From a virus, in the IMG/VR virus record IMGVR_UViG_3300031785_000070, positions 1-21,079 of that record: 21,079 nucleotides of DNA; one strand, 5' to 3'. The notes beneath the pieces are model-generated. The model was given only the letters and a program-made list of their open reading frames with translations, was not told the origin of the DNA and searched no databases. A program made the position numbers and the translations under genes. Shown in pieces: positions 6,584 through 16,032 of this stretch. Each line of letters opens with the position of its first letter. Position 1 is the first letter of the stretch.

Positions 6584-7618
6584 ATGTCTTATATTGATGT
6601 AAAATACCTAAATCTAATCAGTCCAATGCTTCCTCTTTTCAAAAAGAAAGGGGATAATCTTTGGAACTTTCGTTGTCCATATTGTGGAGACTCACAGAAG
6701 TCTCGCACAAAAGCCAGAGGATATGTGTTTCGTAAAAAAGCAGATTTGTTCTATAAGTGTCACAACTGTGGTGCCGGAGCAACATTAGCAAACCTAATCA
6801 AGCATGTAGACTCAAAAACTTACGATGACTATATACTAGAACGATATAGAGATGGAGGCACGGTTACCCGTTCTCCTGTTCCCAAACCGGAGTTTAAGTT
6901 CGATGCGCCAGTTTTTAAGAAGGATATTTTCAAATCACTTCGATCCATTTCGCAACTGGCCAGCACCCATCCGGCACGAAGATTGGTTGAAGCGAGAGGA
7001 ATACCAGAGAAATTTCTCTCCAACGATTTATACCTATGTGAGTCATTTTATAAATTCACCAACACGCTAATAGAAAACAAATTTCCATCCTTGAGTGGTG
7101 ACCACCCAAGGTTGATGATTCCGTTTAGAAACGAGAAAGGAGAAATATTCGCATATCAAGGTAGGGCATTTGGGAAAGAAGTTCCCAAGTATATCACTAT
7201 CAAGTTAGATGAGGACGCTGATAAGATTTATGGTTTAGACAGGGCAGATAAAAACAAACAAATCTACGTTGTGGAAGGACCAATAGATAGCATGTTCCTT
7301 GATAACTGTATCGCAGTCGCAGGGGCAGATTTTTCCAAACCCTTGTCGATTGGTGGAAGATTGATGTTGAATGGTGAGTTGACAATCATATTTGACAACG
7401 AGCCAAGAAATAAAGAGATTTGCAAACAGATTGAGAAGACGATAAGTCAGGGAAGAAATGTCGTTATCTGGCCTGACTCAATGAAACATAAAGATATTAA
7501 CGACATGATACTCGCTGGTTACAGCAAAAAAGATATACAACAAATAATAACAGACAATACCTTTCAGACAGCGGCAGCAAGTCTAAGGTTCGCAGAATGG
7601 AGAAAAATAAATGCCTAG
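6584..7618 (+). CDS. 61: DNA primase, T4 gp61-like
   Basis: A 344-residue primase that would make RNA primers for lagging-strand synthesis at the phage replisome. The N-terminal zinc-binding domain has CPYC (31-34) and CHNC (59-62). The TOPRIM domain has VVEGPID (E231, D235), then IIFDNEPR (D271) and KDINDM (304-308), all in the family order and spacing. The ATG at 6584 is chosen because MSYIDVKYLNLISP matches the usual gp61-like N-terminus; an upstream TTG at 6569 would overlap the -10 box. No Shine-Dalgarno is visible, in keeping with a leaderless message. The stop overlaps the RNR start by 8 bases. Confidence 0.9.
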   Translation: MSYIDVKYLNLISPMLPLFKKKGDNLWNFRCPYCGDSQKSRTKARGYVFRKKADLFYKCHNCGAGATLANLIKHVDSKTYDDYILERYRDGGTVTRSPVPKPEFKFDAPVFKKDIFKSLRSISQLASTHPARRLVEARGIPEKFLSNDLYLCESFYKFTNTLIENKFPSLSGDHPRLMIPFRNEKGEIFAYQGRAFGKEVPKYITIKLDEDADKIYGLDRADKNKQIYVVEGPIDSMFLDNCIAVAGADFSKPLSIGGRLMLNGELTIIFDNEPRNKEICKQIEKTISQGRNVVIWPDSMKHKDINDMILAGYSKKDIQQIITDNTFQTAAASLRFAEWRKINA

Positions 7619-9536
7619 CAACTATCTTCCCACATCCTACCAAGAGTTCATTCATTTATCAAGATATTCAAGATGGCTACCAGAAAAAGAAAGACGAGAA
7701 ACATGGGACGAGACAGTTGCTAGATATTTCGATTTTTTCACAGAACACCTCAAAGAGACAGTAAACTTCACTCTTAGTAAAGAGTTACGGTCAGAACTTG
7801 AACAGGCAGTTCTTGGGTTGCGTGTCATGCCGTCCATGCGTTGTATCATGACGGCTGGTGAAGCACTCAAGAGAGAAAATATTGCAGGGTATAACTGTTC
7901 GTATGTTGCAGTGGATCGTCCACAGGCATTTGACGAAATCCTTTACATTCTCATGAATGGCACTGGTGTCGGCTTCTCGGTGGAGCGTCAGTATGTTTCG
8001 CAGTTGCCCACGATTGCTGATGAGTTCTTTGAGACAGATACCACAATCACAGTCGCTGATTCCAAGTTAGGCTGGGCAAAGGCACTGAAAGAGCTTATCG
8101 GTATGTTGTATGTCGGACAGATACCTCGTTGGGATTTGTCAAAAGTAAGACCCGCTGGCGCACCTCTCAAGACGTTTGGTGGTCGAGCAAGTGGACCAGA
8201 GCCACTTGAGTCCCTCATGAACTTCACAGTCAATGTTTTCAAGAATGCGGCTGGTCGTAAACTATCTTCTATCGAAGCGCATGATGTGGTGTGTAAGATT
8301 GCTGAAGTTGTAGTTGTCGGTGGTGTTCGTAGGTCTGCGTTGATTAGTTTGTCAAACTTATCTGATGACCGCATGAGGGCAGCAAAGTCTGGTCAGTGGT
8401 GGAATGACAATCCTCAACGTGCGTTGGCTAATAATAGTGCATGTTATTCAGAAAAGCCAGATATCGGTGTATTCATGGATGAGTGGAAGTCTCTTTATGA
8501 TTCCAAGTCAGGTGAGCGTGGTATCTTCAATCGTGAGTCTGCCGTCTGGATGGCATCGAAGAATGGTCGTAGAAACACAGAGGATTTTGAGTTTGGCACA
8601 AACCCATGTTCAGAGATTATTTTACGCAATCGTGAGTTCTGTAATCTATCAGAGGTTGTAGTTCGTGCGTCTGATACACGGGAGTCTCTTTTGGAGAAGG
8701 TGCGGCTTGCAACGATTCTTGGCACATTCCAATCAACACTTGTAAACTTCAAGTATGTGTCCAAGTCATGGAGAAAGAACTGCGAAGAGGAGAGACTTTT
8801 AGGAGTCTCTCTCACTGGCATCATGGATTGTAAAATTACAAATGGTAAAGGACCACATGGTTCTCTTCCAGCAATATTAAAAGATTTGAAAGCTGTGGCA
8901 GTTCAAACAAATAAAGCTTATTCAAAAATGTTAGGTATCAATCAAAGTGTCGCTGTAACGTGTGTTAAACCGTCTGGGACGGTCAGCCAGTTGACCGACT
9001 CTGCTTCCGGTATTCATGCGAGGCACAATCCATACTATATTCGCACCGTGCGTGGTGACAAGAAAGACCCGCTCACAAAAATGATGACAGACGTTGGTTT
9101 CCCTGTAGAGGATGATGCAATGAATCCAAGTCATACATCTGTGTTTTCATTCCCCATGAAAGTTGATAACGGTGCGGTGTTTCGTACAGATATGACTGCC
9201 ATCGAACAGTTAGAACTTTGGAAGACATATCAAGAAAACTGGTGCGAACACAAACCGTCTGTTACGATTTCTGTCAAAGAGCATGAGTGGCTTGAAGTTG
9301 GCGCATGGGTATATGAAAACTTTAATTATATGTCAGGTGTAAGTTTCCTTCCATTTTCGGAACATACATATAAGCAAGCACCATATCAAGATTGCACGAA
9401 AGAAGAATATGAGATGCTTCTTGATAAAATGCCAGAAGTTGTGGAGTGGAATAAATTGGCAGAATATGAACAAACAGATATGACAATCGGCGCACAAGAA
9501 CTTGCATGTGCGGCAGGATTTTGTGAAATTCAATGA
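7611..9536 (+). CDS. nrdJ: Class II ribonucleoside-triphosphate reductase, cobalamin-dependent
   Basis: A 641-residue reductase that makes deoxynucleotides from ribonucleoside triphosphates using adenosylcobalamin, of the monomeric RTPR type (Lactobacillus leichmannii enzyme, about 740 residues). The active-site motif NPCSEI gives Asn331, thiyl Cys333 and Glu335. The redox pair is Cys96 (YNCSY) and Cys344 (FCNLSEV), with the same 11-residue spacing from the thiyl Cys as in RTPR. CVKPSGTVSQL (451-461) is the phosphate-binding loop. The C-terminal tail ACAAGFC (Cys633, Cys638) would relay electrons. No class I nrdA/nrdB is seen here. From the middle onward the gene uses CGT for Arg more than its neighbours. 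Confidence 0.92.
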   Translation: MPSNYLPTSYQEFIHLSRYSRWLPEKERRETWDETVARYFDFFTEHLKETVNFTLSKELRSELEQAVLGLRVMPSMRCIMTAGEALKRENIAGYNCSYVAVDRPQAFDEILYILMNGTGVGFSVERQYVSQLPTIADEFFETDTTITVADSKLGWAKALKELIGMLYVGQIPRWDLSKVRPAGAPLKTFGGRASGPEPLESLMNFTVNVFKNAAGRKLSSIEAHDVVCKIAEVVVVGGVRRSALISLSNLSDDRMRAAKSGQWWNDNPQRALANNSACYSEKPDIGVFMDEWKSLYDSKSGERGIFNRESAVWMASKNGRRNTEDFEFGTNPCSEIILRNREFCNLSEVVVRASDTRESLLEKVRLATILGTFQSTLVNFKYVSKSWRKNCEEERLLGVSLTGIMDCKITNGKGPHGSLPAILKDLKAVAVQTNKAYSKMLGINQSVAVTCVKPSGTVSQLTDSASGIHARHNPYYIRTVRGDKKDPLTKMMTDVGFPVEDDAMNPSHTSVFSFPMKVDNGAVFRTDMTAIEQLELWKTYQENWCEHKPSVTISVKEHEWLEVGAWVYENFNYMSGVSFLPFSEHTYKQAPYQDCTKEEYEMLLDKMPEVVEWNKLAEYEQTDMTIGAQELACAAGFCEIQ

Positions 9537-14404: not shown

Positions 14405-15068
14405 AGCTGCCCTCATGGGATGTGTAAGTTTGATTGCATTAAGCGCATGTCAAACCACACAAGACAGTGCCATGCCTGGCACTAGTAAAGCGGTCAATGT
14501 GACCTATGAATATAAGCGTGACCGTGTAAAAGAACAATTGGATAACATTCCAGATTGGTTCAAGAAACAGGAAAATGATACTGGCAATATTCTTTCGGCC
14601 GGAACATCTGTGACGCCAGATATGCAGTTTTCTATTGATGCCGCAGTGCTAAATGCGAAAGTGGTATTAGCAGATAGAATTAATTCTAGATTGCGCTCTC
14701 AAGCAAAACAGTTTAAAGCCAAGGTTGGCTCTGGTGATCTTGATGCGTCTGTAATGTCAGAGTTTGAACGAGCGGTTAAGAATATCATAGCAGATACAGA
14801 TGTGTCTGGATACAATGTGCGTGAACTTGAGATTATCCCACACGGCACTCAATATCGTGCATTTGTTCTGTTGGAATATTCTGATGCAGAAGCAAGAAAA
14901 ATCTTGACAAATCGGTTGCGTAAAGATCGCATGTTGTTTGAAAAGATTCGGGCCACTAAAGCATGGAGAGAGTTGGATGAAAATGCTGACAAGCAAAAGC
15001 AAGAGGATACTGATCGCATCAAGCGTGAGTTGTCTACTCTTGATTCCAAACCAAGTCAAGGCACTTGA
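14388..15068 (+). CDS. LPP20-like outer-membrane lipoprotein
   Basis: A 226-residue lipoprotein with lipobox ALSAC (Cys21) and Gln at +2. The mature part has IPDWF (54-58), then AGTSVTPDMQFSIDAAV and AKVVLADRI, the LPP20 pattern of a Trp-containing start followed by an Ala-rich helix. A later strand pair (VRELEIIPHGTQYRAFVLLEY) completes the fold, and the C-terminus is a charged helix. LPP20-type proteins are outer-membrane lipoproteins of Gram-negative bacteria with poorly known roles. Its overlap with neighbours on both sides points to co-expression in the lipoprotein cassette. Confidence 0.65.
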   Translation: MLSVSKAALMGCVSLIALSACQTTQDSAMPGTSKAVNVTYEYKRDRVKEQLDNIPDWFKKQENDTGNILSAGTSVTPDMQFSIDAAVLNAKVVLADRINSRLRSQAKQFKAKVGSGDLDASVMSEFERAVKNIIADTDVSGYNVRELEIIPHGTQYRAFVLLEYSDAEARKILTNRLRKDRMLFEKIRATKAWRELDENADKQKQEDTDRIKRELSTLDSKPSQGT

Positions 15069-15321
15069 GCCTATCTCCACTGTCATCGGCATAGTGGGTG
15101 GTCCGATTTTCTGTAAGATGATTGAATGCAAAAAGGTAGAGACAAACTATCTTTTTGCAGAATATCCAGAGAAGAATAAAGCAAGACTGGCTGAGATGCG
15201 TAGTAACTTCAAGTGGGGTGGTTACTACGAAGAGAATGAGTGTGTCGATTCTTATGATAAAGAACTTGACAAGAAACATATCGTATGTTATATTAAAGGA
15301 AGATGGGAGATTGTGAAATGA
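14977..15321 (+). CDS. Exported hypothetical protein overlapping the LPP20-like gene
   Basis: A 114-residue protein with a signal peptide (MKMLTSKSKRILIASSVSC, cleavage probably after VKA at 29). The mature part has Cys residues (PIFCKMIECKK; ENECVDSYD; HIVCYIK), likely disulfide-bonded in the periplasm. The ATG at 14977 has GGAGAG upstream; the in-frame ATG at 14938 lacks a good signal-peptide start. The first 92 bases overlap the LPP20-like gene in another frame. The 3' end carries a promoter for the next unit. No family recognised. Confidence 0.6.
   Translation: MKMLTSKSKRILIASSVSCLLLIPNQVKALEPISTVIGIVGGPIFCKMIECKKVETNYLFAEYPEKNKARLAEMRSNFKWGGYYEENECVDSYDKELDKKHIVCYIKGRWEIVK
15266..15294 (+). 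promoter_or_regulatory. Sigma70-type promoter for the tRNA/bS21 unit
   Basis: TTGACA at 15266-15271, a spacer of 17, TATATT at 15289-15294, inside the 3' end of the upstream gene. The expected start is near 15301, so GGGAG at 15305-15309 can serve the ATG at 15318. The transcript would run through the tRNA, the Ia-like gene and bS21. Confidence 0.75.
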
Positions 15322-15389
15322 TTACAGCGTTGATTGTGATGGGTGCAGTTATTGTTGTTAATGATGTTTTGTATCTGGTGATAAACTAA
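15318..15389 (+). CDS. Tiny hydrophobic peptide (23 aa)
   Basis: A 23-residue frame, almost all hydrophobic (MITALIVMGAVIVV, then NDVLYLVIN), one membrane helix. It overlaps the previous stop (ATGA) and the next start (TAATG) and has its own GGGAG at good spacing after a strong promoter. It could be a leader peptide or a true micro-membrane protein. Too short for any homology call. Confidence 0.4.
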   Translation: MITALIVMGAVIVVNDVLYLVIN

Positions 15390-15757
15390 TGAGTGGAATG
15401 CATATGCTTCCCGTGTATTACACAACGACTAATACACGCAAACGTAAAAAGAGCAAGAAGACTCAAAGTCAGATTGCGGCTGAAAAAGAACACGAAAAGT
15501 TTCTCAAGAAAATGGGTATCGGCTCTCGTAGCTCAGTTGGATCAGAGCAACGGTCTTCTAAACCGTGGGTCACAGGTTCGAGTCCTGTCGAGAGCGCCAA
15601 ACCAAAGGTTGTGTATGACTCCTCTATGGCAAAAAAAGAAGAGAAAGTCTATACAGGAACCGAAATCATAGGTATTGCACAGATGCATAAATCTAATGCT
15701 GTACCAGTGCGTGGTAAAAAACAAGCAACAGAGGTTGCTAATATGAGGCGAGGATGA
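15389..15757 (+). CDS. Small basic phage protein frame interrupted in-frame by a tRNA gene
   Basis: A 122-residue open frame. Residues 1-44 (YYTTTNTRKRKKSKK, then EKEHEKFLKKMG) and the C-terminal 43 (VYTGTEIIGIAQMHKSNAVP, ending MRRG) each look like conserved parts of small marine-phage proteins. The middle (residues about 45-70) is encoded by the tRNA gene. Either one protein tolerates the tRNA as an in-frame insert, or two short proteins flank it, the second from ATG 15626 (43 residues). tRNA excision would cut the message. Expression of the full frame is uncertain. Confidence 0.5.
   Translation: MSGMHMLPVYYTTTNTRKRKKSKKTQSQIAAEKEHEKFLKKMGIGSRSSVGSEQRSSKPWVTGSSPVESAKPKVVYDSSMAKKEEKVYTGTEIIGIAQMHKSNAVPVRGKKQATEVANMRRG
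15522..15599 (+). tRNA. trnR-UCU: tRNA-Arg (anticodon UCU)
   Basis: A complete cloverleaf of 78 bases with encoded CCA. The acceptor stem GCTCTCG/CGAGAGC has 7 perfect pairs. The D stem is GCTC/GAGC. The anticodon stem ACGGT/ACCGT encloses loop CTTCTAA, with anticodon TCT at 15557-15559. The variable loop has 5 bases. The T stem ACAGG/CCTGT encloses TTCGAGT. The discriminator is G. It would read AGA and AGG, common Arg codons in this AT-rich genome. It lies sense-strand inside an open reading frame. Confidence 0.97.
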
Positions 15758-16032
15758 CAAAAGTTTGGGAAGATAACTTAAACATGTTAGTCCCATTTTA
15801 TCTGATGGCATCTTATGCATATTATGAAGAAGATGATCCAATTCTTTCTGATGCTGAATATGATACGATTTGTCGTATGCTTGATGAGAATTGGGATACG
15901 GTAGAACATAGTCATAAGTGGTGTGTAAATAAGGAAGATTTGAAAGCTGGTACAGGATATTCTTTAAAATATCCAGACAGAGTTAAATATGCGACAAAAC
16001 ATTTTAGAGAGGAATTAAAAAATGAAAGTTGA
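15754..16032 (+). CDS. Stand-alone LigA adenylation Ia-like domain protein
   Basis: A 92-residue protein. Residues 20-55 resemble the N-terminal Ia domain of NAD+-dependent DNA ligase, which binds the nicotinamide mononucleotide half of NAD+: YAYYEEDDPILSDAEYD aligns with the LigA segment, giving Tyr23, Asp33, Tyr36 and Asp37 for E. coli Tyr22, Asp32, Tyr35 and Asp36. E. coli His23 is Tyr here. No ligase catalytic domain follows. The rest (GTGYSLKYPDRVKYATKHF) is conserved-looking but unassigned. It could bind NAD(H) or a nucleotide, or have reused the fold. The start overlaps the previous stop (ATGA). Confidence 0.6.
   Translation: MTKVWEDNLNMLVPFYLMASYAYYEEDDPILSDAEYDTICRMLDENWDTVEHSHKWCVNKEDLKAGTGYSLKYPDRVKYATKHFREELKNES

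Follow-up and report, generated by a model that had tools for sequence, protein, structure and literature searches.

tRNA genes inside a conserved phage reading frame as a probable translated and exchangeable protein linker

The window analysed here, a viral stretch of 21,079 nucleotides taken at its full length, contains on its plus strand an open reading frame (ORF) of 122 codons plus stop, which runs from ATG to TGA at 15389–15757, belongs to the phrog_27048 family and has a complete tRNA gene in its middle. The N-terminal half (15389–15521; MSGMHMLPVYYTTTNTRKRK... to KFLKKMG) is basic and has a predicted helix at residues 26–41, and the C-terminal half (15600–15754), with the tail YTGTEIIGIAQMHKSNAVPV...MRRG, is predicted to form a hairpin plus a helix at residues 95–121. 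Between them, at 15522–15599, lies a 78-nt tRNA-Arg(UCU) with full stems, the anticodon at 15557–15559, a discriminator G and an encoded CCA at 15597–15599. It extends from position 2 of codon 45 to position 1 of codon 71 and corresponds to residues 45–71 of the ORF. The first-pass annotation, made from the sequence alone, had described a tRNA-Arg with full stems and an encoded CCA, and a sense frame that passes through it without a stop. Both observations hold: ARAGORN and Rfam (RF00005, 70.8 bits, E 6e-14) agree on a tRNA-Arg(TCT) at this position, and the 122-codon ORF is stop-free throughout, the tRNA segment included. A tmRNA identity for the locus was considered and rejected, as it matches RF00005 only.

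The neighbouring genes lie on the same strand. Upstream in the same operon is an ORF at 14938–15321, listed from a TTG and with its stop at 15319–15321, followed by a mini-ORF of 23 codons (15318–15389) whose start overlaps the preceding stop (ATGA, 15318–15321) and whose stop overlaps the ATG of the tRNA-containing ORF. Downstream, a gene of 92 amino acids with an NAD-dependent DNA ligase N-terminal-like domain (PF22745) occupies 15754–16032, its ATG overlapping the ORF stop. Start and stop signals overlap at both ends of the ORF (TAATG at 15387–15391 and ATGA at 15754–15757), and these junctions lock it into the operon. The downstream gene resembles only the N-terminal NAD-binding domain of the ligase, and none of the remainder of that enzyme was seen in the adjoining ORFs.

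A single tRNA within an ORF is not beyond what chance can produce. In a control set of 1425 viral tRNAs, obtained by two pattern scans of viral contigs, ~70% had at least one stop-free frame and 148 (about 10%) lay in a frame that stayed open for at least 20 codons in both directions; with a lone case thus within chance, the test must come from relatives. These were sought with the full protein (117 contigs matched, of which 80 were fetched), with the N-terminal half (313 viral contigs, 80 fetched) and with the C-terminal tail (at least 598 viral contigs, 80 fetched). Neither half-search requires the other half to be present, and so a joined frame is not selected for. After removal of duplicates, 88 of the 160 distinct ORFs from the fetched contigs hold tRNAs inside, with 128 in-ORF tRNAs of seven isotypes and from one to three per ORF. 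The arrays led by tRNA-Arg are Arg, Arg+Pro, Arg+Met, Arg+Met+Pro, Arg+Ile+Pro and Arg+Pro+Thr; the others are Pro, Ala, Ala+Pro, Ala+Thr, Thr, Thr+Pro, Pro+Thr, Ile, Ile+Pro and Trp. All tRNA-bearing members are uncultured metagenome contigs, and the tRNA-bearing form was found in no record of the phage collection. Bacterial and archaeal genomes gave a single match, at a contig edge in a Rhodospirillales MAG (L484). In one relative an in-frame tRNA-like stretch with a T-arm and CCA (L067:822-920) stands before the tRNA-Pro; called as a tRNA by neither ARAGORN nor Rfam, it could represent either an eighth isotype or the remains of a tRNA.

Across these relatives the reading frame is kept with great regularity. 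None of the 128 in-ORF tRNAs has a stop in the phase of the ORF, and all 128 end in CCA. In the 84 distinct tRNA-bearing regions with enough flank, the ORF frame is open through the array in 84, while the counts for the remaining five frames are 5, 0, 11, 6 and 0. The phase is constant for each tRNA length (1 for Arg, Met and Ala, 0 for Pro and Thr, 2 for Trp, 1 or 0 for Ile), and the spacers between tRNAs, of 4, 5, 6 or 7 nt, always restore the frame: 5 nt from Arg to Pro, 6 nt from Arg to Met, and 4 or 7 nt from Ala to Thr and from Pro to Thr, so that in the two pairs with two spacer lengths the lengths differ by exactly three. On a tree of 60 members at least 28 changes of tRNA content were counted, with the frame preserved in all, although this tree of 219 columns is short and partly open and 28 is a rough figure that recombination may inflate.

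Comparison with the control tRNAs points in the same direction. The phase in which tRNA-Arg is read is stop-free in 29/29 family sequences vs 17/135 control viral tRNA-Arg(TCT) (Fisher p about 1e-20, with kinship ignored); the corresponding figures are 7/7 vs 15/62 for tRNA-Thr and 28/28 vs 80/120 for tRNA-Pro. Raw p-values overstate independence here, because the sequences are related. Most control tRNA-Arg have a stop in that phase, either TAG/TAA at tRNA positions 21–23 (D-loop region) or TAA in the anticodon loop, and the length of 78 nt, invariable in the tRNA-Arg inside ORFs, occurs in 2 of the 135 controls. Three tRNA-Thr (L086–L088) and one tRNA-Arg(TCT) (L089) are free-standing, outside long ORFs; those of L086 and L089 have stops in all three frames, and the ORFs of both these contigs hold other tRNAs, while the tRNA-Thr of L087 and of L088 each have one open phase.

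The open frame of a tRNA might merely happen to connect two unrelated open stretches, and the frequencies among the 1425 controls show how readily this can occur once. For the family, however, such an accident has a virtually negligible probability: the ORF frame is open in every region, as against 11 of 84 at most for any other frame, the spacers restore it, the flanks are conserved as coding sequence in the same frame, and tRNA-free homologues hold both ends within one gene. The six-frame counts and the control tRNAs therefore lead us to reject chance as an explanation of the whole family; a lone case could still be due to it. Conservation of the frame over the relatives, unlike the single instance, is in excess of chance, and it is these relatives, beyond the one tRNA seen in the first-pass annotation, that show the linker to be a frame-preserving landing place for exchangeable tRNA arrays.

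The tRNAs are also conserved as tRNAs. Among 29 distinct tRNA-Arg sequences there is no broken pair at any of the 21 stem pairs, with changes on both sides at several of them, and many compensatory changes are seen in tRNA-Pro too; such changes argue that the tRNA itself is conserved. What is expected of a functional tRNA gene is present, namely a cloverleaf with standard pairs, an anticodon, CCA and a match to the covariance model. Folding of the whole ORF RNA gave a z of -1.4, and a clean cloverleaf was not returned as the single best fold. It could be argued that these folds serve as RNA signals, for example as cutting sites that split the operon message, rather than as tRNAs, and are coded through incidentally. 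Folds of tRNA type in polycistronic messages can indeed mark processing, as in the tRNA punctuation of mitochondria. Yet seven isotypes retain their anticodons, identities and CCA, which goes beyond the needs of a cutting signal, and the isotypes change within the arrays as they would in a phage tRNA supply, so that we give this explanation very little credence. A few members have a decayed tRNA, namely tRNA-Arg in L054 and tRNA-Pro in L068/L070 and in L409; the remnants stay in frame and the ORF remains open, which argues that the protein is conserved for itself.

Selection on the protein is evident on both sides of the tRNA, with dN/dS of about 0.08 in the N-terminal and C-terminal halves alike. 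The phrog_27048 profile matches the window protein with E 4e-15 (residues 5–121 of 122 on profile positions 4–127 of 127) and matches 38 of 42 family members, tRNA-bearing and tRNA-free; the window protein has neither a relative in Pfam or the PDB nor a match in NCBIfam. Its AlphaFold model is of modest quality (pLDDT 70, pTM 0.25). It contains the helix at residues 26–41 (pLDDT about 90 for residues 21–40) and the hairpin plus helix at 95–121, and the linker encoded by the tRNA is predicted to be unstructured (pLDDT about 52–63). The same frame without a stop across relatives, together with purifying selection on both sides, is what one gene read through its tRNA should display. One could still suppose that the tRNA is read through only so that translation and transcription stay coupled over the operon, preventing polarity and early termination, with the linker and perhaps the protein of little importance. 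The ATGA and TAATG junctions that chain the ORF to its neighbours would suit this, but the strong purifying selection on both halves and a C-terminal tail conserved in at least 598 viral contigs make it quite improbable.

The tRNA-free relatives bear on the origin of the arrangement. In these (L073, L345, L347, L357, L376, L395 and others) the same two ends lie in one ORF, joined by an unrelated linker of 43–48 amino acids; the commonest linker with a single tRNA is 46 amino acids long, and arrays reach up to 98. The gp114 of Delftia phage PhiW-14 has the same ends, with a clearly homologous C-terminal tail, and another linker, which is tRNA-free in PhiW-14 as in ACP17, C48C1 and BUCT-ZZ01. 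In two of the tRNA-free members, L345 and L357, a tRNA-Arg(TCT) follows shortly after the ORF rather than lying within it. The first-pass annotation had proposed either a tRNA inserted into a small phage gene or a fusion of two genes across a tRNA. The former is favoured, since tRNA-free relatives are single genes with a linker of similar length and the same profile matches both kinds; the fusion is disfavoured and was rejected, because the relatives without a tRNA hold both halves in one ORF with the same ends, and the halves are separate in no relative. Two outcomes that would have spoken against that annotation, halves that are always separate genes and a middle conserved without the tRNA, were looked for, and neither was found.

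It had further been suggested that the ATG downstream of the tRNA (codon 80, 15626–15628) could release a short message of its own. This start varies among relatives: the aligned residue is M in 45 of 71 ORFs, and otherwise S (9), A (7), C (4), Q (3), L (2) or T (1), so it is not conserved. The same ATG bears on the wider idea that the tRNA is always excised, with the N-terminal half either ending at the cut or not produced, the C-terminal half made from the internal start, and the open frame incidental. In its favour, the window has an in-frame ATG after the tRNA, and most of the aligned ORFs have M at that position. Nevertheless, the ATG is lost in about one third of the aligned relatives, the frame and the absence of stops persist over at least 28 array changes although separate products would have no need of them, and the ORF is kept where tRNAs have decayed; we regard two separate products as very improbable.

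Three types of C-terminal tail follow the tRNAs in frame: MHKSN, YVVGQAYNKGG...DPATGKRR (L058, L063, L069, L071) and FTIAPAYNKGPYQVIS...KDIGR (L075, L381, L385). They differ even behind the same tRNA or tRNA pair, and gene content downstream also differs among members with different tails. The family of the MHKSN tail is widespread, occurring in at least 598 viral contigs behind N-terminal parts that vary greatly (e.g. L436, L438, L448 and L458). A tRNA sequence shared in mid-gene might thus act mainly as a hinge for recombination, by which phages swap arrays and tails, the tRNA's own role being small. The different tails in frame behind identical tRNAs and the differing local gene content downstream fit this well. 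On the other hand, it leaves the compensatory stem changes, the kept anticodons and the CCA unexplained, and tRNA-free members vary in their tails as well. As the main account it is unlikely; as a source of turnover it is compatible with the explanation that we prefer.

That explanation is that the ORF is, with high probability, a single genuine gene of marine T4-like tailed phages, and that functional tRNA genes came to sit in its variable, disordered linker, so that the same bases are selected both as tRNA and as a stop-free linker. The comparison of sequences gives strong support to a double use of the same bases, as functional tRNAs and as code for a protein linker; both constraints, the turnover of the arrays, the keeping of the frame and the decayed tRNAs within intact ORFs can be read from it directly. 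We further consider it likely that these tRNA genes, single or arrayed, form a translated, exchangeable linker, with each transcript spent either as tRNA or as protein and with rescue by a phage tmRNA completing the cycle. One operon transcript would have two fates. If ribosomes arrive first, they would open the tRNA fold and produce the full-length protein; if RNase P and the 3' processing enzymes come first, the mature tRNA would be released and the message severed, and ribosomes on its 5' part, which lacks a stop codon, would need tmRNA to rescue them. Other kinds of tRNA would come and go by recombination, with only the frame-keeping changes surviving. The earlier statement that one transcript can yield the tRNA or the long protein and not both is supported by this logic, and we infer that both products are made and compete.

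Excision of a tRNA would leave messages without a stop codon, a problem that tmRNA resolves, and tmRNA genes often accompany the arrays. A tmRNA (RF01849) is present in 8/8 tRNA-in-ORF contigs of at least 38 kb over both tested sets, although several of these may be near-duplicates, and one of alphaproteobacterial type in 8/10 tRNA-in-ORF contigs of the first tested set; the same threshold was passed by 4/15 tRNA-free family contigs and 2/20 unrelated contigs. An example is found at L086:3501-3933, on the contig of L024, with the tag ANDNIAYGDYALAA. The link between tmRNA and in-ORF tRNAs is suggestive, and lineage and host confound it. In the L055 contig, a long relative, genes for T4-like baseplate and tail proteins indicate that these are contractile-tailed phages. 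The window itself encodes at 7611–9536 a class II ribonucleotide reductase with 64% identity to its counterparts in Sinorhizobium phage phiM6 and Puniceispirillum phage HMO-2011, and this similarity suggests an alphaproteobacterial host.

To our knowledge, no described family fits this arrangement: each of the known systems compared here, namely tRNA clusters, Rickettsia palindromic elements, tmRNA and mitochondrial overlaps, differs from it in a defining feature. Ordinary phage tRNA clusters share with this family the encoded CCA, short spacers, isotype turnover and same-strand arrays, yet they usually lie between genes and have stops in most frames, whereas here the array lies inside one frame with frame-keeping spacers. 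In mitochondria, overlaps between tRNA and protein genes occur at gene ends or between genes; there, as here, a tRNA shares bases or a transcript with a protein gene and its excision cuts the message, but the phage array, as known here from its sequence, lies wholly within a reading frame that continues through it. Dual-function RNAs such as tmRNA and those of the SgrS type resemble this locus in that one RNA combines a tRNA-like or regulatory role with a coding role; their coding and structural parts mostly occupy different segments, whereas the phage locus uses the same bases as tRNA body and as codons. Rickettsia palindromic elements are small in-frame inserts in protein genes, palindromic repeats over many genes, with no known tRNA role. 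Like the phage tRNAs, they are RNA-folding elements that stand in frame in a protein gene, preserve that frame and are tolerated in a linker or surface region; unlike these dispersed repeats, the tRNAs of the phage locus are intact, comprise seven isotypes and occupy a single site of one gene family, and a selfish palindromic insert of the Rickettsia kind was rejected because the inserts are isotype-specific tRNAs at one site of one family. These Rickettsia elements are named in PMC1950309. Among described genes, gp114 of PhiW-14 (phrog_27048) belongs to the same gene family and has the homologous tail, with the difference that its linker is free of tRNA. A phrase search of the open-access literature returned no precedent for tRNA genes inside a translated gene, which is weak evidence given that scope.

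If the explanation given here is true, this family would be a natural and widespread case of selection acting on the same bases both as complete tRNA and as coding sequence, with a reading frame that holds while the tRNA array changes. For annotation it carries a warning, since gene callers that mask tRNAs or forbid overlaps split or drop the gene. It would bear on the origin of dual coding and on where phages place tRNA genes in dense genomes, as well as on the competition between translation and tRNA processing for one RNA and on the reason why these phages carry a tmRNA.
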